A stretch of DNA of 64,000 bases from Fidelibacterota bacterium (GTDB taxonomy: Bacteria; Fidelibacterota; SORT01): contig JACZYG010000012.1 in NCBI GenBank assembly GCA_022571215.1, positions 1 through 64,000 of the forward strand. Direction: 5' to 3'. Every line of letters begins with the position of its first letter. The first letter of the stretch is position 1. The notes under the pieces were generated by a model. That model worked only from the letters and a program-made list of their open reading frames with translations, was not told the origin of the DNA and ran no database searches. A program made the position numbers and the translations under genes. This document shows, piece after piece, positions 1,932 through 27,353 of this stretch.

Positions 1932-4258
1932 TGAGCGAAGAGAACAGAAAACTAAGTAAATTCGACAGCAAAGTGGTTAATTACAGCAGGTGGGTAATCA
2001 AATGGCGCTGGCTGATAATTCTAACGACTTTTCTCATTGCCGGGGTCAGCGCGAGCGGCGGAAGATTCCTGGTGTTTGATACGAATTACAGGGTTTTCTT
2101 CGGCGACGACAATCCACAGCTTGCCGATTTTGAGCAACTCCAAAATATCTATACGAAAAACGATAATATCATAGTCATCTTAGAACCGAGCGACGGTGAA
2201 GTTTTCACCGGAAAAACTCTCGATGCGGTTGAATGGCTGACCGGTGAGGCATGGAAAGTGCCTTACGCAATTCGGGTGGACGCGATAACCAATTTTCAAC
2301 ACATCCGGGCAGAGGGAGATGAACTTATAGTCGAAGATCTGGTCTACGATGCGCTGAATATGTCTCAGGAACAACTTGATTATGCAAGAGAAACGGCTGT
2401 TAAGGATCCCTTATTGCTCAATCGGCTGATTTCTAGCAAGGCTCATGTAACAGGTGTGAACATTACTTTGCAGCTGCCAGGAGAATCTATCTTTGAGGTG
2501 CCTGAGTCGGTAGAATATGCTCGCGGACTCGCGACACAATTGGAAGAGACTTATCCCCATATTCGCACATACCTGACAGGTACGGCGATGCTGAATAATG
2601 CCTTCACCGAAGCGGGATTAAAAGATATCCAAACACTTATTCCGCTGATGTATCTCCTAATAATTATCACCATGATAATTCTGCTGCGGTCATTTAGCGG
2701 AACTCTTGCGGCATTGTTGGTCATAGGACTATCAGCGGCAACGGCAATGGGTCTTGCCGGATGGGCAGGGATTGGATTGACTCCGCCGTCGGCAACCGCT
2801 CCTACGATGATACTGACGCTGGCGGTTGCGGACAGTATTCATATACTCATGATATTTTTACGGGAAATGCGTCACGGCATGAACAAATCAGACGCTCTTG
2901 CGGAGAGTCTGCGATTGAATTTTATGCCGGTATTTCTGACGAGTGTTACAACGGTTATCGGTTTTCTCAGCTTGAATTTCAGCGATGTTCCACCACTACA
3001 TGATCTTGGAAATATAGCTTCGACCGGAATTGTGGCGGCGTATGTCTATTCGATACTCTTCCTGCCGGCAATGATCTCTGTTCTTCCCTTTAAAGTTAAA
3101 TTGAGAGATCAGGAAAAGCTGCAATTCATGGACAGGTTTGCTGATTTTGTAATTAAAAATTCAAAATTATTGTTGGCCGGTTCCGTCATCTTGATCATCA
3201 TACTCGCGTCATTTATCACGCGTAACGAGTTGAACGATCAGTTCGTGGAATATTTCGATGAGAGTATCAAGTTCCGGACTGATACGGATTTTACCATCGA
3301 TAATCTCACGGGAGTTTATCAGATCGAGCATTCACTCGGAGCAGGTGAGAGCGGAGGCATAAGTAATCCGGCTTATCTAAACAAGCTGGAGGATTTCGCA
3401 AACTGGTATCGTGAGCAGGATGGAGTCATACAGGTTTACACCGTTAGCGAAATAATGAAACGACTTAACAGAAGTATGCATGGTGACGATGAAGAGTGGT
3501 ATAGGATACCCGAAAGTCGTGAATTAGCCGCGCAATATCTGCTTCTCTATGAGATGTCATTGCCGTACGGATTGGACCTCAACAATCAGATAAATGTGGA
3601 TAAATCAGCGACTCGTCTGACAGCCACATTCGATGATGTGACATCAAAAGAGATGAGGGAGATGTCCGATAAGGGATCTGCCTGGCTGAGAGAAAACGCG
3701 CCCGAATATATGTTTTATCCCGGCTCGGGTATGGCAGTAATGTTCTCCTATATATCGGGCAGAAATATTGACAGCATGCTTAAGGGAACTTCTTTCGCGT
3801 TGATCCTGATCTCGTTTTCGCTCATAATAGCTCTCCGAAGTTTTAAATTCGGATTAATAAGTCTCATCCCGAATATAGTGCCAGCTCTGATGGCTTTTGG
3901 AGTTTGGGGACTTTTGGTCGGCGAAGTCGGATTTGCTCTTGCAATCGTTACAAGCATGAGTTTGGGTATTGTCGTTGACGATACCGTCCACTTCCTATCA
4001 AAGTATTTACGGGCGCGCAGAGAGAAAAATTTGAGTACGGAGGAAGCGATCCGATATGCGTTTTCATCTGTCGGAACGGCGCTGCTTGTAACAACACTCA
4101 TTCTTATCGCAGGCTTTGCGGTTCTTTCACTCTCCTCCTTCAAGGTCAATGCGGGAATGGGACAACTGACTGCGATAACTATCGCATTTGCGCTGCTGAT
4201 AGATTTTGTCATGCTGCCGCCTGTGATAATGCTTTTTTCAAAAAAGGAAAATAATTAG
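1931..4258 (+). CDS. RND-superfamily (MMPL-type) inner-membrane transporter
   Basis: At 775 residues this is a two-repeat RND permease. Each half has one transmembrane helix, a large periplasmic loop, then a five-helix bundle. Helices are visible around residues 24-44, 235-385, 407-427 and 620-770. The second bundle carries the acidic pair in VVDDTVHFLSKYL, typical of the proton-coupled MMPL/HpnN class; the first has VADSIHILMIF at the equivalent place. It lacks the size of AcrB-type drug pumps and resembles exporters that move lipids or other hydrophobic molecules to the outer membrane. Genes for a LolA-like periplasmic protein and an outer-membrane protein follow, the usual set for this class. 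The substrate is unknown. A promoter with operator-like palindrome lies upstream. Confidence 0.85.
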   Translation: MSEENRKLSKFDSKVVNYSRWVIKWRWLIILTTFLIAGVSASGGRFLVFDTNYRVFFGDDNPQLADFEQLQNIYTKNDNIIVILEPSDGEVFTGKTLDAVEWLTGEAWKVPYAIRVDAITNFQHIRAEGDELIVEDLVYDALNMSQEQLDYARETAVKDPLLLNRLISSKAHVTGVNITLQLPGESIFEVPESVEYARGLATQLEETYPHIRTYLTGTAMLNNAFTEAGLKDIQTLIPLMYLLIIITMIILLRSFSGTLAALLVIGLSAATAMGLAGWAGIGLTPPSATAPTMILTLAVADSIHILMIFLREMRHGMNKSDALAESLRLNFMPVFLTSVTTVIGFLSLNFSDVPPLHDLGNIASTGIVAAYVYSILFLPAMISVLPFKVKLRDQEKLQFMDRFADFVIKNSKLLLAGSVILIIILASFITRNELNDQFVEYFDESIKFRTDTDFTIDNLTGVYQIEHSLGAGESGGISNPAYLNKLEDFANWYREQDGVIQVYTVSEIMKRLNRSMHGDDEEWYRIPESRELAAQYLLLYEMSLPYGLDLNNQINVDKSATRLTATFDDVTSKEMREMSDKGSAWLRENAPEYMFYPGSGMAVMFSYISGRNIDSMLKGTSFALILISFSLIIALRSFKFGLISLIPNIVPALMAFGVWGLLVGEVGFALAIVTSMSLGIVVDDTVHFLSKYLRARREKNLSTEEAIRYAFSSVGTALLVTTLILIAGFAVLSLSSFKVNAGMGQLTAITIAFALLIDFVMLPPVIMLFSKKENN

Positions 4259-13561: not shown

Positions 13562-14109
13562 AAAGTATGCGGCTGCTTCTTCCGATATTTCTCTCAGTTC
13601 TAATCATATCAAGCGGTTTATCTGCTCAGAAGATAGAAGATTCCACCTTTTCAAAAAACAAAGTCTATCTCTACGCCTCAAAAGGCAACGTAATTGTAGT
13701 CGGCAAGGTCATCGAACTTTCAATAATAGATCTGCAACTTATGAATTTCAACGATGATAGGTTCATCCGGTTCGACCCGAAATCGGACAACCTGTTCATA
13801 GTCAGATATGAATCTGATATTAAGGCTGCCAAATACGATTATGATTATATTGACAACGAGATTTATCCTAATAAGCAAATGAATCTTCATTTCTATCTGC
13901 CGGAACACAAAGATATAACCCGTAATGAAATATACTATCTCACATATAATAGCGCGTCTGATACACTGGTTTTGGCTCCCACTTCGGATAAGGAAGTTGA
14001 ATTATATGTTAGTCGTTTCGAAAAACGTGAAGCGAGAAAATGGTTTAAAAAATTGGCTAAATTTACGCTCTTCGTGATCGCATCAGTTGCGGGGCTTCGG
14101 CTTCTATGA
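13558..14109 (+). CDS. Secreted or membrane-anchored protein of unknown function
   Basis: At 183 residues, it has an N-terminal signal sequence (MRLLLPIFLSVLIISSGLSAQ) and a hydrophobic C-terminal segment (FTLFVIASVAGLRLL) that could anchor it. The middle is beta-rich and polar with no motif I recognise (YVYLYASKGNVIVVGKVIELS-type strands). TTG 13558 overlaps the ispG stop codon. ATG 13567, three codons on, is an equally good start and trims the peptide to MRLLL. It overlaps yifB by 4 bp, so ispG, this gene and yifB are probably one transcript. No link to isoprenoid synthesis can be inferred beyond position. Confidence 0.65.
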   Translation: MKSMRLLLPIFLSVLIISSGLSAQKIEDSTFSKNKVYLYASKGNVIVVGKVIELSIIDLQLMNFNDDRFIRFDPKSDNLFIVRYESDIKAAKYDYDYIDNEIYPNKQMNLHFYLPEHKDITRNEIYYLTYNSASDTLVLAPTSDKEVELYVSRFEKREARKWFKKLAKFTLFVIASVAGLRLL

Positions 14110-15671
14110 TGGAGAATAAGCTAAACACAAACAAAGCCTCAAAGCTACTGAGCGCGGCGGTTCTCGGAGTGGAAGCGTACATAGTGGAAGTCGAATCACA
14201 TCTCGACGCCCAACTGCCTGCGTTTGTAACGGTCGGACTTCCGGATGCGGCCGTTAAAGAGAGCAAGGAGCGGGTTTCAGCGGCGATAAAGAACTCAGGT
14301 TATAAATTGCCGATGAAGAAGATAACGATAAATCTCGCTCCGGCGGACGTTCGTAAGGAGGGTTCCGCGTTCGACCTCCCGATAGCTGTGGGAATTCTCG
14401 CTGCGAGCGGTGTCGTTCCAAATGACAGACTCGATAAATATCTCATTCTCGGTGAATTGAGTCTTCAGGGCACTCTCCGGGCTATCAGAGGCGCTCTTAA
14501 TATAGCCGTGATGGCAGGAAAACAGAAAAATCTGGCTGGTATTATCCTTCCAAAACAGAACGCGGAAGAGGCGGCAGTAGCAGGGACTGTTCCCGTTTTC
14601 CCCGCCGAAAGCTTGGGTGATGTGGTCGAATTCCTAAAAGGAGAGAAGGATCTGTCTCAATTCACGGTGAATATTGACTCGATAATGAAAACCGCGCGTG
14701 AATATGAGATGGATTTTGCCGATGTCAAGGGTCAAGCGCATGTTAAACGAGCGCTTGAAGTGGCAGCCGCAGGTGGTCATAATATCATTATGATAGGACC
14801 TCCCGGAAGCGGTAAAACAATGCTCGCGAAACGGCTTCCAAGCATACTCCCGGATCTGCGTCTTGAAGAGGCTATAGAAACTACCATGATCCATTCCGTG
14901 ATGGGTCTGCTCCCGAAAAATAAAGGCTTGATTACGACCCGACCGTTCCGTTCGCCGCATCATACTGTTAGCGAGGCGGGATTGGTAGGAGGTGGCAGCA
15001 TCCCGAAACCGGGAGAGGTCAGTCTTTCTCATAACGGCGTTCTCTTTCTCGATGAATTGCCTGAATTCGGAAAGAGCGTGCTTGAAGTTCTGCGTCAGCC
15101 GCTTGAAGACGGCTGGGTTACGATCTCAAGAGCTTCGATGTCTCTTACATATCCGTCTAATATACTTCTTTCCTCCGCCATGAATCCATGCCCGTGCGGG
15201 TATGCTACCGATCCGAATAACGATTGCAACTGCAGTAACCGTGAGATCCATCATTATATGAAACGCATTTCCGGTCCCCTTCTTGACCGGATAGATATAC
15301 ATATTGAAGTGCCGTCCGTGAACTACTCGGAACTGTCGAGCAAAGAGAGGGGGGAGCCTTCCGCCGATATTCGAGCGCGAATAGAAATTGCGCGTGACGT
15401 TCAAACGAAACGTTTCAGCGATGTGAAAGGCTTACATACCAACGCTCAGATGGGATCGAAACAGATTCGCAATTATTGCGTTATAGACGAGAAAGGCGAT
15501 GAGCTGCTTCGAACAGCGATCAATAAACTCGGACTTTCAGCGCGCGCGTACGACAGGATACTCAAGGTCGGAAGAACGATTGCCGACTTGGAAGGCTCCG
15601 AGGAGATCAAACCCGAATACATTTCGGAGGCAATACAATACAGGACGCTCGACAGGCAGCTCTGGAACTGA
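14106..15671 (+). CDS. comM: YifB/ComM family Mg-chelatase-like AAA+ ATPase
   Basis: This 521-residue protein has three parts. An N-terminal Lon-like fold (about 20-180: FVTVGLPDAAVKESKERV, INLAPADVRKEGSAFDLP) is followed by an AAA+ module with Walker A GPPGSGKT (about 231-238), Walker B LFLDELPEF and RPFRSPHHTVS. The C-terminal Mg_chelatase_C domain contains SARAYDRILKVGRTIADLEG. In naturally competent bacteria ComM is a hexameric helicase that drives branch migration of incoming DNA. Here a role in recombination or transformation is inferred from the family. A zinc-like cluster, MNPCPCGYATDPNNDCNC, is typical. It overlaps the upstream gene by 4 bp. Confidence 0.93.
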   Translation: MMENKLNTNKASKLLSAAVLGVEAYIVEVESHLDAQLPAFVTVGLPDAAVKESKERVSAAIKNSGYKLPMKKITINLAPADVRKEGSAFDLPIAVGILAASGVVPNDRLDKYLILGELSLQGTLRAIRGALNIAVMAGKQKNLAGIILPKQNAEEAAVAGTVPVFPAESLGDVVEFLKGEKDLSQFTVNIDSIMKTAREYEMDFADVKGQAHVKRALEVAAAGGHNIIMIGPPGSGKTMLAKRLPSILPDLRLEEAIETTMIHSVMGLLPKNKGLITTRPFRSPHHTVSEAGLVGGGSIPKPGEVSLSHNGVLFLDELPEFGKSVLEVLRQPLEDGWVTISRASMSLTYPSNILLSSAMNPCPCGYATDPNNDCNCSNREIHHYMKRISGPLLDRIDIHIEVPSVNYSELSSKERGEPSADIRARIEIARDVQTKRFSDVKGLHTNAQMGSKQIRNYCVIDEKGDELLRTAINKLGLSARAYDRILKVGRTIADLEGSEEIKPEYISEAIQYRTLDRQLWN

Positions 15672-15697
15672 AGTAGGACTATTTCCGAAAAGGTGTC

Positions 15698-15730
15698 TTT
15701 GTCCAAACGAAGAAGATGGTGTTGTTTATA
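15698..15730 (+). repeat. Fragment of a T9SS sorting-domain coding end
   Basis: Read in frame it encodes FVQTKKMVLF and then a stop, closely matching the final residues (FVQTRKMVLLK) of the two T9SS cargo genes nearby. DNA identity to 16990-17019 is about 24 of 30. It lies between yifB and the next gene, with no sorting domain before it, so it looks like the remnant of a lost gene end. Confidence 0.5.
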
Positions 15731-17025
15731 TGAATAAATATTTTCTAATAATTCTTTTGACAGTTTTTTCATCCGGGAACGTGTATTCTCAAAGCGATCC
15801 TGAAATTACTCAAAAACTTTCTGACATATTCTTTACAGACTCTCAAAATGGCTGGGTGATCGGCGACAGTGGATTTATCGCGCGCACCAATGACGGGGGA
15901 ATTTCCTGGAGTAAGTCCCCCACAAGTGTCATTGACAGTTTAACGACCCTATTTTTTATAGATGCCGTACATGGTTGGGTAGGCGGCGAAAACGGAATCC
16001 TTCTTAAAACCACTGACTCCGGTAATTCATGGCAATCGACCCCCACAAATTCGGAAGAAATTATTTTAGATATTGAATTTGCAAATAATGACATAGGATG
16101 GTTCAGTGACGGCACGGGAGCGTACAGTACTGAAAATGGTGGTGCGACATGGGAAAAGATAATTGATAGTCTGGGAATAGCATTTCTATCCGTGCTTGAC
16201 AGTAACATTGTGTGGTTTGAAGAAGATGTATTTAGGGTGTATAGATCCGCAGATGGCGGAAATTCAATAGAAAATATACCTTCCGGGTTTGCTTATATCG
16301 GAATATGTGGTGCGTGGACAGAAGATTTTGATATGGCTAATGACTCAACCGGCTTGATGGTAGGGACAGTTTGGTGTCTCAATATTTCATTCAAAGATAG
16401 TATAGATTATTTCCCCTTACTTATTGAGTTGTTATCCAAAGATTCTCTTTTATGGATGCCTTCTCAAGCACAAGGAACCGGAAGTGAACCACTCGATGCC
16501 GTTCAGTTTCTTACTGAGAAAATTGTATGGTCCGTTGGAGAATTCGGTACGATAATTAAATCTCAAAATGGTGGCATTATCTGGGTAAAACAATTATCCG
16601 GTACCGAGACAGATCTATTTTCGATGTCATTTATCGACACTCTGACCGGTTGGGTGCTGGGTAAAAATAATCTTATCCTACATACTACCGATGGAGGGGA
16701 GAACTGGAGTACATTGGTGAGCATTGATAATAAAGAATATAATATCCCAAATGAATTCACGCTTTTGCAAAACTATCCCAACCCGTTTAACCCTGTGACG
16801 AAGATAGAATACGTTCTACCAGTCGGGTCGGAGATTAGTCTGATAATTTATAACCTCCTTGGACGGGAAGTAGCACGTGTTGTTGACGGCGAGCAATCGG
16901 CAGGCAACCATACTGTTAGATGGGATGCATCAAATTTTGCCTCCGGCATATACTTCTACCGCCTCCAGGCGGGTCCGGCAGCTGGCGGATTCGTCCAGAC
17001 GAGGAAGATGGTATTATTAAAATAG
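15730..17025 (+). CDS. Secreted Ycf48-like beta-propeller with type IX sorting domain
   Basis: At 431 residues, it has a signal peptide (MNKYFLIILLTVFSSGNVYSQ), then a propeller of BNR/Ycf48-like repeats. The pattern is FFTDSQNGWVIGDSGFIARTNDGGISW, recurring as DAVHGWVGGENGILLKTTDSGNSW and later FIDTLTGWVLGKNNLILHTTDGGENW. The last ~80 residues are a type-A T9SS C-terminal domain starting LLQNYPNPFNPVTKIEYVL and ending FVQTRKMVLLK. It is therefore exported across the outer membrane and probably surface-attached. The substrate or partner is unknown. The start is ATG 15730; longer frames into yifB are spurious. The gene end (16990-17055) is duplicated at 17819-17884. Confidence 0.85.
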   Translation: MNKYFLIILLTVFSSGNVYSQSDPEITQKLSDIFFTDSQNGWVIGDSGFIARTNDGGISWSKSPTSVIDSLTTLFFIDAVHGWVGGENGILLKTTDSGNSWQSTPTNSEEIILDIEFANNDIGWFSDGTGAYSTENGGATWEKIIDSLGIAFLSVLDSNIVWFEEDVFRVYRSADGGNSIENIPSGFAYIGICGAWTEDFDMANDSTGLMVGTVWCLNISFKDSIDYFPLLIELLSKDSLLWMPSQAQGTGSEPLDAVQFLTEKIVWSVGEFGTIIKSQNGGIIWVKQLSGTETDLFSMSFIDTLTGWVLGKNNLILHTTDGGENWSTLVSIDNKEYNIPNEFTLLQNYPNPFNPVTKIEYVLPVGSEISLIIYNLLGREVARVVDGEQSAGNHTVRWDASNFASGIYFYRLQAGPAAGGFVQTRKMVLLK

Positions 17026-17055
17026 GGAGCTATTAGCGCTTCTGCGTTAGAAATC
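16990..17055 (+). repeat. 66-bp direct repeat, left copy (gene end plus 3' flank)
   Basis: It runs from the TTCGTCCAGACG codons of the T9SS domain through the stop into 30 bp of flanking DNA. Identical at 63 of 66 positions, without gaps, to 17819-17884. The two copies bracket a 763-bp segment that contains the DUF2784 gene. Confidence 0.85.
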
Positions 17056-17086
17056 CGACGTTTAGAATATATAAAGATTCTATTCA

Positions 17087-17112
17087 GCGTCAGGGCAAGC
17101 CCTGACTGCCAC
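17087..17112 (-). repeat. Single unit of palindromic repeat family A
   Basis: GTCAGGGC-AA-GCCCTGAC (17089-17106) with flanking GC and TGCCAC. In reverse orientation it matches the left unit of family A (GTGGCAGTC...), with a G-C pair replacing the A-T pair of the copies at 1250 and 4293. It could also act as a bidirectional terminator between the convergent genes, but it has no T-run. Confidence 0.65.
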
Positions 17113-17240
17113 CGAAATTAAACGTTTTTAAACTTTGATTTATGTATGCCGAATGCAGCGAAAGGCACTGTTTAGGGCATCAGGATAATGAATACCGGTT
17201 AGTTTCATCGCCGATTGCGGGACTAAGGTAAATCCCGACT

Positions 17241-17600
17241 CTAACGTAATTTTTTCCAGACGAGATAGTAGGCTGCGGCATTTATAATTATCACTCCAGC
17301 TGCTAAGTAATATTGCACCTGCCGCGTGAGACCCGGCGGATAGACAATAGGAATCAAATAATAGTCTATAAAACCTCCCGTATAGAACCCTGAACCGGCT
17401 CTGACTCTCAATTCTATCTCCAACGTTGTCAGGGGACAAACCCAGCCGCCGACTTCAATAGCCGCTCCCCACAGAGCTACCGGAATATGATAATAGAGAA
17501 TCCTTCTCCATTTTAGAACTGTAAAACCGCCGAAAACTACAAATAGGATAAAAGTAAAGTGAATCAGTAAAACCACATCCGCGAAAAACTTGTAGGGCAT
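17241..17600 (-). CDS. DUF2784 family membrane protein
   Basis: This 119-residue protein has three to four hydrophobic helices. It begins KFFADVVLLIHFTFILFVVFGG and contains the family-like segments HIPVALWGAAIEVGGWVCPLTTLE and YPPGLTRQVQYYLA. These match the uncharacterised DUF2784 family of small inner-membrane proteins. The function is unknown. The gene is alone on the minus strand inside a segment bounded by 66-bp direct repeats, so it may have arrived by, or be prone to loss through, recombination between them. Confidence 0.8.
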   Translation of the reverse strand: MPYKFFADVVLLIHFTFILFVVFGGFTVLKWRRILYYHIPVALWGAAIEVGGWVCPLTTLEIELRVRAGSGFYTGGFIDYYLIPIVYPPGLTRQVQYYLAAGVIIINAAAYYLVWKKLR

Positions 17601-17641
17601 GATTAACTATTATCTCTATATCTAATATTGTTCATATCGCT

Positions 17642-17673
17642 GTCACTGCGAAGAATGCGCCAACGAAGCAACC
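17642..17673 (+). repeat. Dispersed palindromic repeat, family B, degraded copy
   Basis: GTCACTGCGAAGAATGCG, then CAACGAAGCAACC, matches the ends of family B (GTCATTGCGAGGAA...GAAGCAATC) with several substitutions and a short centre. Confidence 0.45.
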
Positions 17674-17818
17674 TTTTATTCTGTATCATAGACACCTCAG
17701 TTGCAGACTTTGCAAATTGCTTCAACTTAATAAAGCTGTTTCACAATCATATTCAATAGTAACGCCTTTTATCCGTAGTGGCAAACAGCATATACTTTCA
17801 GAGCTCAAAGTAAGCAAT

Positions 17819-17884
17819 TTCGTCCAGACGAAGAAGTTGGTATTATGAAAATAGGGAGCTATTAGCGCTTCTGCGTTAGAAATC
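17819..17884 (+). repeat. 66-bp direct repeat, right copy (orphan gene end)
   Basis: It encodes, in a frame with no gene before it, the last residues of a T9SS sorting domain plus the same 3' flank as 16990-17055 (63/66 identical). Upstream sequence shows no trace of the rest of the domain, so the identity begins abruptly at TTCGTCC. Confidence 0.85.
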
Positions 17885-17945
17885 AGGCGCATAGAGTCTC
17901 TTTAACTCTAAATATTGGCCTGAAAACAGCCTGTATGCTTTACAG

Positions 17946-18458
17946 TTATTCTTCTTCGGCGGCAGGAAGCGCTTCAGGGACAGGAAGCGGTAGGCTGCTG
18001 TTCCAGGTGGCAGTAATCATCTTCCAACTGCCGTTTTCACGCTTCCATATCTCCACGTATTTGCCATTATCGCTGATAGCCTCACCCTCTTCGGGCTGTA
18101 TGGTAAGCGTATATTTGCCGACCACGTGCGCCATATCACCACTCACATGAAGGTCTATAACTGTGAGATGTAAATCACGTCCGCCTGCGTCGTAGAAAGC
18201 TTGGAAAAATTCTTGTATACTCTCTCTACCGGTAACCATTTGATTGTTTGGCGGAAGAACTTTTGCCTCTTCTGTGTAGTGTGTGGCAAAAGCGGCAAGA
18301 TCGCCGGAGTCGAAGTTATCCTCCCATTGCTTGCTGGCAGCTCTGATAGCTTGACCGTCCTCAGCAGTAGTATCTTGAGTCGCTGTTGTGCAACTCACCA
18401 GAAAGGGTATAGCAAGTGTCAGAACGAGCAGAGAAAGAGTCGGGTGTTTATGTACCAT
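17946..18458 (-). CDS. SnoaL-like (DUF4440) lipoprotein
   Basis: A 170-residue protein with a lipoprotein signal (LAIPFLVSC, Cys23), followed by an NTF2/SnoaL-like domain: QAIRAASKQWEDNFDSGDLAAFATHYTEEAKVLPPN, GRESIQEFF, KYVEIWKRENGSWKMITATWNS. This is the DUF4440 pattern, a cone-shaped fold used by isomerases and by many binding proteins; function here is unknown. The tail is Pro/Ala/Glu-rich (PEALPAAEEE). A strong SD (AGGGGGTG on the minus strand) supports the start. It is divergent from the metalloprotein-like gene at 18679. Confidence 0.85.
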   Translation of the reverse strand: MVHKHPTLSLLVLTLAIPFLVSCTTATQDTTAEDGQAIRAASKQWEDNFDSGDLAAFATHYTEEAKVLPPNNQMVTGRESIQEFFQAFYDAGGRDLHLTVIDLHVSGDMAHVVGKYTLTIQPEEGEAISDNGKYVEIWKRENGSWKMITATWNSSLPLPVPEALPAAEEE

Positions 18459-18678
18459 AGTTTCACCCCCTATAGTTTGGATTGATTTAGTACCAATAAA
18501 GAATAACTAATTGCTCTCGGAAATGCAAGCGAAATGCCTATCTCCCTGATAGATAAGCATATCTTTTTATGAGTCGGAAGACCCGGAGAGGCGCATATTG
18601 GTCACACTAATTAAAATCTTGACTTAAAATATCTAATAAGTAAATTGAAAATCAGACTAATAATAAGGAAACGTGAGC

Positions 18679-19752
18679 ATGTCCAGATGTATGCGGTTAA
18701 CAATTAAAGGGACTATCCTTTTTTTGATACATGTAATAATACCGATAAATTCTCCGGCACAAAATCCGCCTTTCGTTGGAACTATCTTCGTTGATCCGGA
18801 CATCATTACGTCATCAGACACTACCTCATTCCAGAGCGTGTCAAACGCCGGGCAGGGTTTTCGAACGATGTTCGACAGACGTGTCAATGACTGGGTCAAT
18901 GTGAATGCGTATTTGTTCAACGCGAGCTTTGACGATGGACTATCCGCCGAGATTCAGGTCAATCCCGAATTCGGCAGCGTAGCTTTGGCTTTGGCGGAGG
19001 CGCAGAAGTATGGGGAAGTTATCGGTAGAATACCCACAGCGCTTCGGGTCGATGTGCAAACCGTCTGGATTCACAAAGGCGTTGAGCCGTTTGGAGGTGG
19101 GAATAACAACCTGCTCATCCACACAGGTCAAACTGATCTTTATATCGCTGACGGCATCCTCGAGGAGACATTTGTGCACGAGGCATCACACACTTCCCTT
19201 GACGCGGACCATGCATCGTCAGCCGGATGGCTCGCCGCGCAGGTCGCTGATGATCTGTTTATCTCTAGCTATGCCAGAGACAATCCGGATCGCGAAGATA
19301 TTGCAGAAAGTTTTCTGCTTTATTTAGCCGTCCGGTTCCGATCAGATCGGATCACTCAATCACTAAAAGATTTGATAGAGGAGGCGATGCCCAACCGAAT
19401 TGCCTATTTTGACCAACAATCGTTTGATATGCACCCGGTATACTCGTTGGTAACCGGAGTCAATGATCCTGCCACAATTAAGCTGCCCAATACTTTTGCC
19501 CTGCTTCAGAATTATCCGAACCCGTTTAACCCGACAACTACGATAAAGTACAGTATATCTCAATCGGCAAATGTTTCGTTGATAGTTTTTAACCTCATCG
19601 GACAAGAAGTAGCTCGCCTCGTTGATGGTGTTCAGAAGGCGGGATATCATAATATCAATTGGGATGCGTCAAACATCTCCAGCGGCATCTACTTCTACCG
19701 CCTCCAAGCAGGCGAATTCGTTCAAACGAGGAAGATGTTGTTGTTGAAATAA
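18679..19752 (+). CDS. Secreted HExxH-containing protein with type IX sorting domain
   Basis: About 357 residues. The signal region is MRLTIKGTILFLIHVIIPINSPAQ. A central domain contains ETFVHEASHTSLDADHASS. Its HEASH matches the HExxH zinc site of metallopeptidases, with Asp and His residues six to eight further on. The C-terminal ~80 residues are a T9SS domain (LLQNYPNPFNPTTTIKYSI ... FVQTRKMLLLK). A secreted metallopeptidase is a reasonable guess, but I do not recognise the family. ATG 18679 is chosen over GTG 18673 because AAGGAA (18665-18670) is properly spaced only for the former. Confidence 0.8.
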   Translation: MSRCMRLTIKGTILFLIHVIIPINSPAQNPPFVGTIFVDPDIITSSDTTSFQSVSNAGQGFRTMFDRRVNDWVNVNAYLFNASFDDGLSAEIQVNPEFGSVALALAEAQKYGEVIGRIPTALRVDVQTVWIHKGVEPFGGGNNNLLIHTGQTDLYIADGILEETFVHEASHTSLDADHASSAGWLAAQVADDLFISSYARDNPDREDIAESFLLYLAVRFRSDRITQSLKDLIEEAMPNRIAYFDQQSFDMHPVYSLVTGVNDPATIKLPNTFALLQNYPNPFNPTTTIKYSISQSANVSLIVFNLIGQEVARLVDGVQKAGYHNINWDASNISSGIYFYRLQAGEFVQTRKMLLLK

Positions 19753-19755
19753 ATC

Positions 19756-20136
19756 GTGACTGTCTATAAAAAAGCGATAATCGGAATATCGGGGTTTTCT
19801 ACGGTAGCAGCTCTACTGCTGATAATCAGCGAACTAAACTCTGTAGGTACATGCCCGCCGTTTCCGTTATTCGGGTTTCCGACATGCTATCTTGTATTCC
19901 TGTTATACGCGGCAGTTTTTGGCTCACAATTCACCTCCGATAAGCTTCTAACGGAAAGAATATTTTGGACAGCAAGCCTGATAGGTATGCTGACCGCATT
20001 TTGGTTTTCTACAGATCAGCTGATCGGATTAAGTGAATGTCCCAAATTTAATGAAGTTCCCCTTTGTTATGTCGCGCTGATTGGGTGGGGAGTGCTGATG
20101 TGGCTGCATCGGAAGGACATTTCAGGACTCCGATAA
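19756..20136 (+). CDS. Small four-helix membrane protein with paired Cys motifs
   Basis: At 126 residues, it has four hydrophobic helices. Two similar segments occur: CPPFPLFGFPTCYLVFLLY (about 33-51) and CPKFNEVPLCYVALIGW (about 95-111). Each has a Cys-Pro start and a Pro-x-Cys-Tyr end at a helix entrance, suggesting an internal duplication with cysteines on the same side. The layout could allow disulfide chemistry, but no thioredoxin or VKOR motif is present. The GTG start lies 3 bp after the T9SS gene stop, so they are probably co-transcribed. I do not recognise the family. Confidence 0.6.
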   Translation: MTVYKKAIIGISGFSTVAALLLIISELNSVGTCPPFPLFGFPTCYLVFLLYAAVFGSQFTSDKLLTERIFWTASLIGMLTAFWFSTDQLIGLSECPKFNEVPLCYVALIGWGVLMWLHRKDISGLR

Positions 20137-20171
20137 TGAAGACTAAACGGAGATTGAGACGGGGTGTGTTC

Positions 20172-20226
20172 TATGGAGTGCGTCAACTGCGTTGATGCGG
20201 CATTGACACAGTCAATTCGCTCCAAA
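20172..20226. repeat. Two-hairpin repeat, family C, copy 2
   Basis: 50 of 55 bases match 12252-12306 with no gaps. The hairpins are GCGTCAAC-TGC-GTTGATGC and GCATTGAC-ACA-GTCAATTC within TGGAGTG / CGCTCCA arms. A family B element begins at the very next base. Confidence 0.8.
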
Positions 20227-20279
20227 GAGATTGCTTCGTCGCTCCCCCCGCATTCTGCGGAGTTTCTCCTCGCAATGAC
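20227..20279 (-). repeat. Dispersed palindromic repeat, family B, copy 2
   Basis: In reverse orientation, it ends GTCATTGCGAGGAGAAAC and starts GAAGCAATCTC like the copy at 1515. The variable centre has hairpin CCGCA-TTC-TGCGG. It directly abuts the family C element. Confidence 0.75.
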
Positions 20280-20303
20280 AAGCGAGTGCGAGCCGTTATA
20301 GAA

Positions 20304-21122
20304 TCAATCTCCGAGCGTTCTCTTGAGATAATCCTTTAGTCTTTTCCATGCGTCGGTTGCCGCTGATTTGCCTTCCGGTCGTTTGTCTATCCAGAGGAAG
20401 AAGCCGTGTCCGACATCATCGTAGATGTGGATTTCATTCTCTATACCTGCTTTTCGGAGAGCCTTCTCGAATTTTCTCACGTCCGAGGGAGGGATGCCGC
20501 CGTCATTCTCGCCGAATATACCAAGAACTTCATGACCGATATGTTTGAGCTTCTCAGGATCGTCTATAAGTCTGCCGTAGAAAATCGCGGTCGCTTCATG
20601 ATGTTCTCCGCCAATGCCGTATGAAAGCGCGACACCACCGCCGTAACACCAACCCATAGTTCCGATTTTGTCAGTTATAACATCGTCTCTGCCTCTGAGG
20701 TAAGATGCCGCGGCATCAAGATTTCGAATAATATAATCAGGGTCAGAGAGCGATTCAGTCATCAGCGTTCTGTTTTCCGCATTGTTTGAGCCTGTTTTCC
20801 CGCTGTACATATCCACGGCAAGAACTACATACCCTTCATCAGCGAGAGCGTCAGCCATCTCCTTTATACGCAATTTCAGACCGTACCATTCGTGCACGAT
20901 TATCAAAGCCGGTTTCTTTCCTTCTGTGTCCGGTGCGACTATATACCCCGCTGTCTTCGGGTCTTCACTGAAATAATTTACCGATTCGCCTCTCAGGGAG
21001 GACGCCGTTCCGAGAACGGCGGGAGGGAGGTCGCCGTCGGTCGGTTTTTCCTGCGCGGTTGAATTGGAAGGCAGATAGAGCAAGATCGAAAGAATAATGC
21101 TTATTGAATATATTAATTTCAT
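20304..21122 (-). CDS. Secreted dienelactone hydrolase family protein
   Basis: At 272 residues, it has signal peptide MKLIYSISIILSILLYLPSNSTAQ and an alpha/beta-hydrolase of the DLH family. The triad is Cys159 (GWCYGG), Asp207 (GENDGG) and His239 (DVGHGFF). The oxyanion-side segment VHEWYGL and GYVVLAVDMYSGKTG fit. It would hydrolyse a lactone or ester outside the cytoplasm; the natural substrate is unknown. A strong SD (AGGGAGG on the minus strand) precedes the ATG. It lies alone 77 bp downstream of nadA and may share its transcript. Confidence 0.87.
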   Translation of the reverse strand: MKLIYSISIILSILLYLPSNSTAQEKPTDGDLPPAVLGTASSLRGESVNYFSEDPKTAGYIVAPDTEGKKPALIIVHEWYGLKLRIKEMADALADEGYVVLAVDMYSGKTGSNNAENRTLMTESLSDPDYIIRNLDAAASYLRGRDDVITDKIGTMGWCYGGGVALSYGIGGEHHEATAIFYGRLIDDPEKLKHIGHEVLGIFGENDGGIPPSDVRKFEKALRKAGIENEIHIYDDVGHGFFLWIDKRPEGKSAATDAWKRLKDYLKRTLGD

Positions 21123-27214: not shown

Positions 27215-27278
27215 TATTAAACTTGCTTCAACCGAAATGCAAGAGATGAAGATATTGCTTTACCCGAATGATTTTCTT

Positions 27279-27307
27279 TTGTAATTTCATCCTCTGTCAA
27301 CTAATAT
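27279..27307 (+). promoter_or_regulatory. Possible promoter of the STAS operon
   Basis: TTGTAA (27279-27284), a 17-bp spacer and TAATAT (27302-27307): 4/6 and 4/6 to consensus. It lies 46 bp upstream of the STAS gene, in the divergent gap from smpB. The match is weak but well placed. Confidence 0.35.
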
Positions 27308-27353
27308 GATTTCTTACATTTTGGGATTATTTTATGAATATTGGAGGATTTAG

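Follow-up and report, generated by a model that had tools for sequence, protein, structure and literature searches.

The window, that is, the whole stretch of 64,000 nucleotides that was analysed, carries a propeller gene predicted to be exported by the T9SS, a DUF2784 gene and a gene of the DUF4440/SnoaL-like type between comM and a second T9SS gene (Table 1). The DUF2784 gene passes the gathering score of PF10861 (125 bits versus 29.7), and the PF18962 sorting domains of both T9SS genes are above the Pfam cut-off (34.6 and 39.5 versus 27). An Rfam scan of positions 15000-20500 returned nothing at the gathering score. Positions 18590-18623, before the second T9SS gene, resemble by eye the end of the tRNA-SeC arm element described below (GGTCACACTAATTAAAATCTTGA). 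The locus was compared in five genomes of one Marinimicrobia family, whose members were retrieved by search: G000 is the window's own genome, G001 and G002 belong to the same genus, and G003 and G004 to the same family.

Table 1. Features of the window and related features of the other genomes.
Feature	Position	Strand	Evidence or remark
comM (Mg-chelatase family)	14106..15671	+	PF01078/PF13541/PF13335
comM 3' end, putative anchor of an insertion hot spot			downstream content differs in G003 and G004
Orphan T9SS tail VFVQTKKMVLF	15691..15726	+	19 bp past comM; profile E 1.4e-6; divergence sets in just before the propeller ATG
Propeller gene, YCF48-like, predicted T9SS export, with sorting domain	15730..17025	+	PF14870, PF18962
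Repeat copy 1	16990..17055	+	
Flank common with copy 2, about 41 bp, unrelated beyond	17026..17066	+	leader profile E 0.42 only
DUF2784 gene, cargo of the inserted segment	17241..17600	-	PF10861, E 1.7e-36
Orphan T9SS tail of other type, NFVQTKKLVL*, decayed, in-frame stop	17804..17853	+	
Repeat copy 2	17819..17884	+	
DUF4440-module leader (TTAGAAATTAGGCGTTTAGAG...CTGAAAACAGCC family)	17874..17937	+	E 1.8e-7
DUF4440/SnoaL-like gene, multicopy module in the family	17946..18458	-	PF14534; relatives in G000-G004, several contexts
Second T9SS gene, genuine tail at 19699-19751	18673..19752	+	PF18962; synteny with DUF4440 retained in G004 (G004:C44, 81% over 1.8 kb)
Interval from smpB to the MRIKEKIEG gene	27215..27330	.	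empty here; holds the propeller gene in G004
Propeller relative in G004	L032 5809-7116		between smpB and the gene starting MRIKEKIEG
Orphan comM 3' ends	L027 (G004:C44) 1778-1823 and 2492-2556	-	
tRNA-SeC-like att-like cores with arm	L024 305, 1370, 2218, 7597, 11353; L037 8898, 15360, others		

As reported in the preliminary description, two copies of a 66-bp sequence (16990-17055 and 17819-17884), identical at 63 of the 66 positions, are separated by 763 bp containing the DUF2784 gene, and copy 1 consists of the final 36 coding bases of the propeller gene and 30 bp of flank. Mismatches are confined to repeat positions 14, 19 and 29, so that the last 37 positions are identical, and the alignment extends to 17066 and 17895, respectively (70 of 77 positions identical). 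The left border of copy 2 had been described as abrupt. It is abrupt in comparison with copy 1, but not in comparison with the T9SS tail family, to which the match runs on as far as approximately 17804 (profile match at 17804-17853, E 7.6e-7), with gap-free similarity over 15 nt upstream from the FVQT codons. The GPAAGG insert of copy 1 is absent from this upstream part, indicating that the two tails derive from different sorting domains. Judged from its sequence, copy 2 is another T9SS end, decayed by an in-frame stop codon and followed by the leader of the DUF4440 module, for which a profile was built from 14 other places in the family. Since copy 2 is decayed, the event at this locus would be old. 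An additional orphan tail, which had escaped the preliminary description, immediately precedes the propeller gene.

The 30-bp flank resembles a shortened leader of the DUF4440 module. A dispersed repeat was considered for this flank and rejected, since its 29-nt core is present at two places only in the window with up to three mismatches allowed (0 in 100 shuffles), and since only other parts of the segment recur elsewhere in the window's own genome. In a search of that genome with the 921-bp segment, the other matches listed fall within the coding tail or within a separate palindromic stretch, and no further copy of the flank was found among them. The flank common to both copies, which extends 30-41 bp beyond the stop codon, unlike that of most orphans, still requires either that it was duplicated locally or that a crossover passed through the tail.

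The relatives were compared for presence or absence of the segment, as the preliminary description had proposed. In G004, the locus contains comM, DUF4440 and the second T9SS gene, without propeller gene or DUF2784. In G003, the stretch between comM and the contig end is occupied by a different gene (by eye). DUF2784 is present in three of the five genomes (G000, G001, and G002), with another T9SS gene upstream in G002 and beside another gene in G001; it was not found in G003 and G004 in the search of the five family genomes. The closest relative of the propeller gene sits elsewhere in G004, in an interval that is empty in the window, indicating that the propeller gene changed place too. Its middle part and its sorting domain differ from those of the G004 gene, indicating that the propeller gene is itself a mosaic. 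At 16768-16805, it matches the G004 relative as far as the NPFNPVT segment and then diverges, as if its sorting domain had been swapped at this segment. DUF4440 genes with the conserved leader exist in multiple copies across the family; they occupy several contexts, and tandem arrangements are frequent (L025, L026, L028, L033, L052, and window 17946-18458).

The best reading of the locus is that the DUF2784 segment and the preceding propeller gene are insertions at a comM hot spot. By its anatomy, the DUF2784 segment is a small cassette bounded on the right by an orphan T9SS tail, and DUF2784 would have entered by recombination between tails. Excision of the gene by recombination between the two copies, which had been predicted, is plausible. 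Two origins had been put forward for the repeats: insertion of a cassette at conserved sorting-domain ends fits the data, and does so family-wide, whereas a simple tandem duplication is unsupported.

Orphan tails reproduce the terminal 12-30 codons of a T9SS sorting domain and form the end of a unit. The search for additional orphan T9SS ends, also proposed earlier, was made with the tail profile over 75 sources (669 kb) picked mostly around tails in the five genomes, so that densities are not genome-wide; in the first scan of G001 and of G002, 40 of 43 candidates were scored. After removal of duplicates, the 123 matches comprised 73 distinct orphans, 33 genuine tails, and 17 weak matches (E above 1e-6, the two orphans of the window being kept). 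Orphans were detected in all five genomes (11 in G000, 23 in G001, 25 in G002, 10 in G003, and 4 in G004). Nearly all of them retain the final codons and the stop codon, and conservation ends sharply at the latter, the information content dropping from 0.92 to 0.20 bit immediately past it. The left limits vary between 1 and 68 bp upstream of FVQT, apart from a single orphan at 147; the shortest values are uncertain, since 168 of 200 trials with random sequence yielded 0-5 bp. These limits were measured for 70 orphans and 33 genuine tails, each needing 150 bp upstream; a limit of at least 90 bp was observed for 1 of the 70 orphans versus 21 of the 33 genuine tails. On a reading of the alignment columns, third codon positions vary more than first and second positions in orphans too.

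Orphans follow genes closely, at a median distance of 75 bp versus 238 bp for random intergenic points. Excluding five of the 70 orphans that lie inside a predicted gene, the preceding gene is on the same strand for 49 of 65 orphans versus 253 of 417 random points (p 0.027). The tail was in frame 0 with the preceding gene in 17 of 36 cases (p 0.06), a count bearing on the idea of readthrough. The genes located between tails are varied (DUF4440, a ferredoxin-like protein identified by eye, YceI, and LGT); a Pfam scan of eight array proteins assigned a family to YceI and LGT only. Arrays of units each followed by a tail were found in G002:C21, G001:C37, and G001:C3, although not all units contain a single gene.

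Several controls were performed. The tail query matched six of 29 genomes that belong to other families, with 12 matches in total. Ten of these have a sorting domain upstream (in a shortened frame for one, L107), and the others (L117 and L118) are weak and doubtful, with neither sorting domain nor FVQT. No convincing orphan was found in these 29 genomes, for which the query, being DNA of this family, is less sensitive. A search of the five genomes for the NPF segment, which is also a conserved part of the sorting domain, yielded 25 matches, of which 24 are in domains complete by length, including one that ends early at SGIYF, and one is without motif; in five of the 25 loci, which are near contig ends, the distance from the locus centre to the examined motif exceeded 150 nt. 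Since this segment is nearly always in a complete domain, it is the terminal piece that becomes orphaned. Amplification chimeras occur in single-cell genomes, which G001 and G002 appear to be. However, artefacts of assembly or amplification cannot explain all orphans, since junctions are common to G003 and G000, to G000 and G002, and to G001 and G002. The exact 32-nt tail pattern had no match in viral contigs, which is weak evidence as only exact matching was used. A search of the 669 kb for duplicated 3' ends of other genes, T9SS tails being set aside, led to acceptance of comM in G004 only, with a crude filter for paralogues.

Comparison of the neighbours of 111 tails (E up to 1e-3) flagged 68 pairs, in which only the left neighbour is the same in 15, only the right in 49, and both in 4. 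These pairs share members, and are therefore not independent, and they include genuine tails; a few do not align in register (L069, and L022 with L063 or L081). Units that comprise one gene or a few and end in a T9SS tail copy sit behind genes with the same end, and their partners are exchanged between genomes. Four units are 93.7-95.1% identical between two genomes (two in G000/G002, one in G002/G004, and one in G001/G003). A fifth, in G001/G002 (92.7%), is no closer than other DNA common to these two genomes.

The clearest case is one locus, compared in three species, that is present with and without a unit. G002 has the order gene A-tail-gene B-tail-D, and G000 the order gene A-tail-D. Gene A, a T9SS gene of 657 aa in G000, is 94.8% identical to its G002 counterpart over 1964 bp, and gene B of G002 is a second T9SS gene (422 aa). 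Flank D is 89.5% identical over 904 bp between G000 and G002, and three segments beyond D are 76-80% identical. At the same locus, G001 has three other genes with tails, followed by a flank matching D (86.7% over 354 bp). Up to position +4, the only tail of G000 is the same as tail A of G002, and beyond it the resemblance is to tail B, as though the two flanking tails of G002 had recombined.

Crossover positions were mapped starting from 101 tails, of which 12 pairs with at least 88% identity over 90 bp were kept. The 2-log-unit intervals were located at or left of +5 in five pairs, at or right of +9 in three, and spanned both in four. The position of crossovers partly to the left of +5 and partly to the right of +9 is as predicted by homologous recombination. 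Crossover positions thus seem to vary, the intervals being wide, although later mutation or conversion could mimic such variation, since several informative pairs are only 91-92% identical.

Duplication of a 3' end was not limited to T9SS tails. G004 harbors two extra copies of the comM 3' end (65 and approximately 45 bp), both of which stop at the stop codon. They bound a HicA/HicB-like pair (named by eye from the translation) and a second DUF4440 gene. Duplication of the comM end, which is not a T9SS tail, in a similar manner hints at a more general 3'-end mechanism. In G002, which is 66% complete, only the first 36 codons of comM were found (L082, G002:C38, 2165-2272), with a stop inside the matched stretch; an arm-like element adjoins this fragment.

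Tyrosine recombinases were found beside tRNA-Leu in G000, G001, and G002, and beside tRNA-SeC in G000 and G002. Tyrosine integrases adjoin the tail arrays of G001:C3 (by tRNA-Leu) and of G002:C21, which starts with an integrase remnant similar to the tRNA-SeC one of G002:C14. The arrays also contain tRNA-SeC-like 3' ends with an arm of approximately 150 bp (41 matches in the five genomes, some to the arm only). In G002:C21, several units consist of a core, a gene, a T9SS tail with leader, and the next core, the shortest being approximately 0.85 kb; some units between tRNA-SeC-like cores are only 0.85-1.1 kb long. The left edge of the core is sharp (0.01 bit at -5 versus 1.4-2.0 bits at -4 to -1), the edge alone being informative as the 18 sites, one of which is the tRNA gene itself, were chosen by core sequence. 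Such an edge is expected of a tyrosine recombinase, and the tails do not have it. The tRNA-Leu integrase family was detected (E 1e-40 or better) in three of 61 genomes, all of genus g1; it was not found by this search in G003 and G004, both of which have orphans, indicating that tails do not require it everywhere. The tRNA-SeC integrases were detected with PF00589 only. We interpret the arrays as the site of two processes, one being insertion at tRNA ends, driven by integrases, and the other recombination at T9SS tails. G000, the genome of the window, contains two longer tRNA-SeC 3' fragments at a distance of 4.7 kb (L072, G000:C66, 235 and 4964), which resemble the footprint of an integrated island.

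From the orphan ends, their shape, the exchange of neighbours, and the locus with and without a unit, we infer that recombination between T9SS tails is probably what moves the cassettes. Homologous or homeologous recombination would proceed through the 40-70 bp of common tail DNA, and a unit excised between two tails, or imported DNA bearing tails, could recombine with any other tail. As both sides encode the same C-terminus, the T9SS gene would keep its sorting signal and the insertion would be tolerated. At the window locus, the T9SS propeller gene would have entered first between comM and DUF4440, followed by DUF2784, and the 66-bp repeat would be the tail pair and DUF4440 leader left at both ends of the DUF2784 segment.

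Use of the T9SS tail as an attachment site by a site-specific tyrosine recombinase, in the manner of an integron or of a tRNA-targeting island, with cassettes that bring a copy of the 3' end of the gene and so restore it upon insertion, is the alternative that fares best, although we consider it unlikely. It would account for the integrases adjoining the tail arrays, for the small units, often a single gene with the site behind it, for the tRNA-SeC-like cores with conserved arm interleaved with tails, and for right limits coinciding with the stop codon, including those of the comM ends of G004. In addition, seven of the 12 crossover intervals are compatible with a single zone from +12 to +23. 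However, five of the 12 lie at or left of +5, the left limits of orphans are scattered over 1-68 bp in comparison with the sharp edge of the tRNA-SeC-like core, and the tRNA-Leu integrase family is restricted to three g1 genomes whereas orphans extend to G003 and G004.

The repeat of the window might also have arisen, independently of any wider system, by tandem duplication of the propeller end together with the adjoining DUF4440 gene, the inner copy being later replaced by DUF2784. The 37 identical bases do resemble a local copy, and DUF4440 genes occur in tandem in G003, G004, and G001. We nevertheless regard this scenario as quite improbable, since the tail of copy 2 is of a different type and is flanked by the DUF4440 leader (E 1.8e-7), a repeat search detected no DUF4440 remnant in the interval, and 73 orphans with many unrelated neighbours require a general process. 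Finally, it is highly improbable that orphan tails are remains of decayed T9SS genes that take no part in gene movement: a few orphans do have longer sorting-domain traces (for example, L081+8884, L077-8947, and L092+1374) and third codon positions are the more variable ones, but for 69 of the 70 orphans measured the similarity does not reach back as far as 90 bp before FVQT, NPF segments are in complete domains in 24 of 25 cases, and neighbours are exchanged at tails.

Recombination through T9SS tails was compared with known systems of gene movement. Like integron arrays (IntI, attC), the arrays described here contain units that often consist of one small gene, a repeated site behind the gene (orphans followed same-strand genes in 49 of 65 cases), mixed functions, and common units in new contexts. 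In contrast to integrons, the repeat is the end of a protein-coding gene, attC boxes and an attC fold were not found, the integrases scanned are of the phage type rather than IntI, and crossovers apparently do not occur at one base. The three integrases scanned (from G000, G001, and G002) scored 92-97 bits with TIGR02249 versus a cut-off of 265, and two of them matched phrog_1 (E 3e-72 and 2e-63). A pair of attC boxes (R'' RYYYAAC and R' GTTRRRY) was found in one of 77 neighbourhoods of tails without NPF motif, versus 1.9% in shuffles, and the two bottom strands tested folded no better than shuffles (z 0.20 and -0.73). Membership in integrons was therefore rejected on the basis of the missing boxes, of the fold in these two strands, and of the absence of IntI among these three integrases.

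In tRNA-targeting islands and small satellites, such as tycheposons and PICMIs, the 3' end of a gene is duplicated at the far end of the element and the function of the gene is kept. The duplicated 3' end and the preserved host gene are common features, and tRNA-SeC-like att cores and arms are present in the same arrays. The tail sites differ in having smeared left edges, in being in protein genes, and in delimiting units of approximately 0.5-2 kb without integrase. A sharp block of identity, starting at a fixed crossover and running to the target gene's end, was not observed for T9SS tails, given the 1-68 bp scatter. Orphan Rhs/CDI toxin-immunity modules are gene fragments located beside intact relatives, with a short common sequence that allows homologous exchange. 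Shared gene fragments are used for exchange in both cases, but the C-terminal toxin is the variable cargo of Rhs/CDI, whereas the C-terminal end is the constant joint here and the cargo can be any gene. Among the literature matches listed, whose coverage leaves out subscription papers, nothing concerned T9SS tails as cassette joints or islands of this bacterial group.

The tails may form a mobile cassette system without attC, in which secreted-protein genes supply the joint with their 3' coding end and of which the copies of comM and tRNA-SeC ends would point to a general, 3'-end-restoring mode of gene capture; we propose this generalization tentatively, with less confidence than the role of tail recombination itself. 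Integrons are the standard example of gene cassettes, and to our knowledge it is open how a gene acquires its recombination site in that system. Here, an abundant gene family provides, through its conserved end, an obvious source of the site, and the landing rule is simple, insertion occurring where the end is restored. If this is true, any T9SS gene would be a safe landing site, with the export signal restored on insertion, and ordinary genes would spread between species carrying an end remnant of 40-70 bp. This suggests a route for the trade of single genes between species and genera of uncultured marine bacteria.
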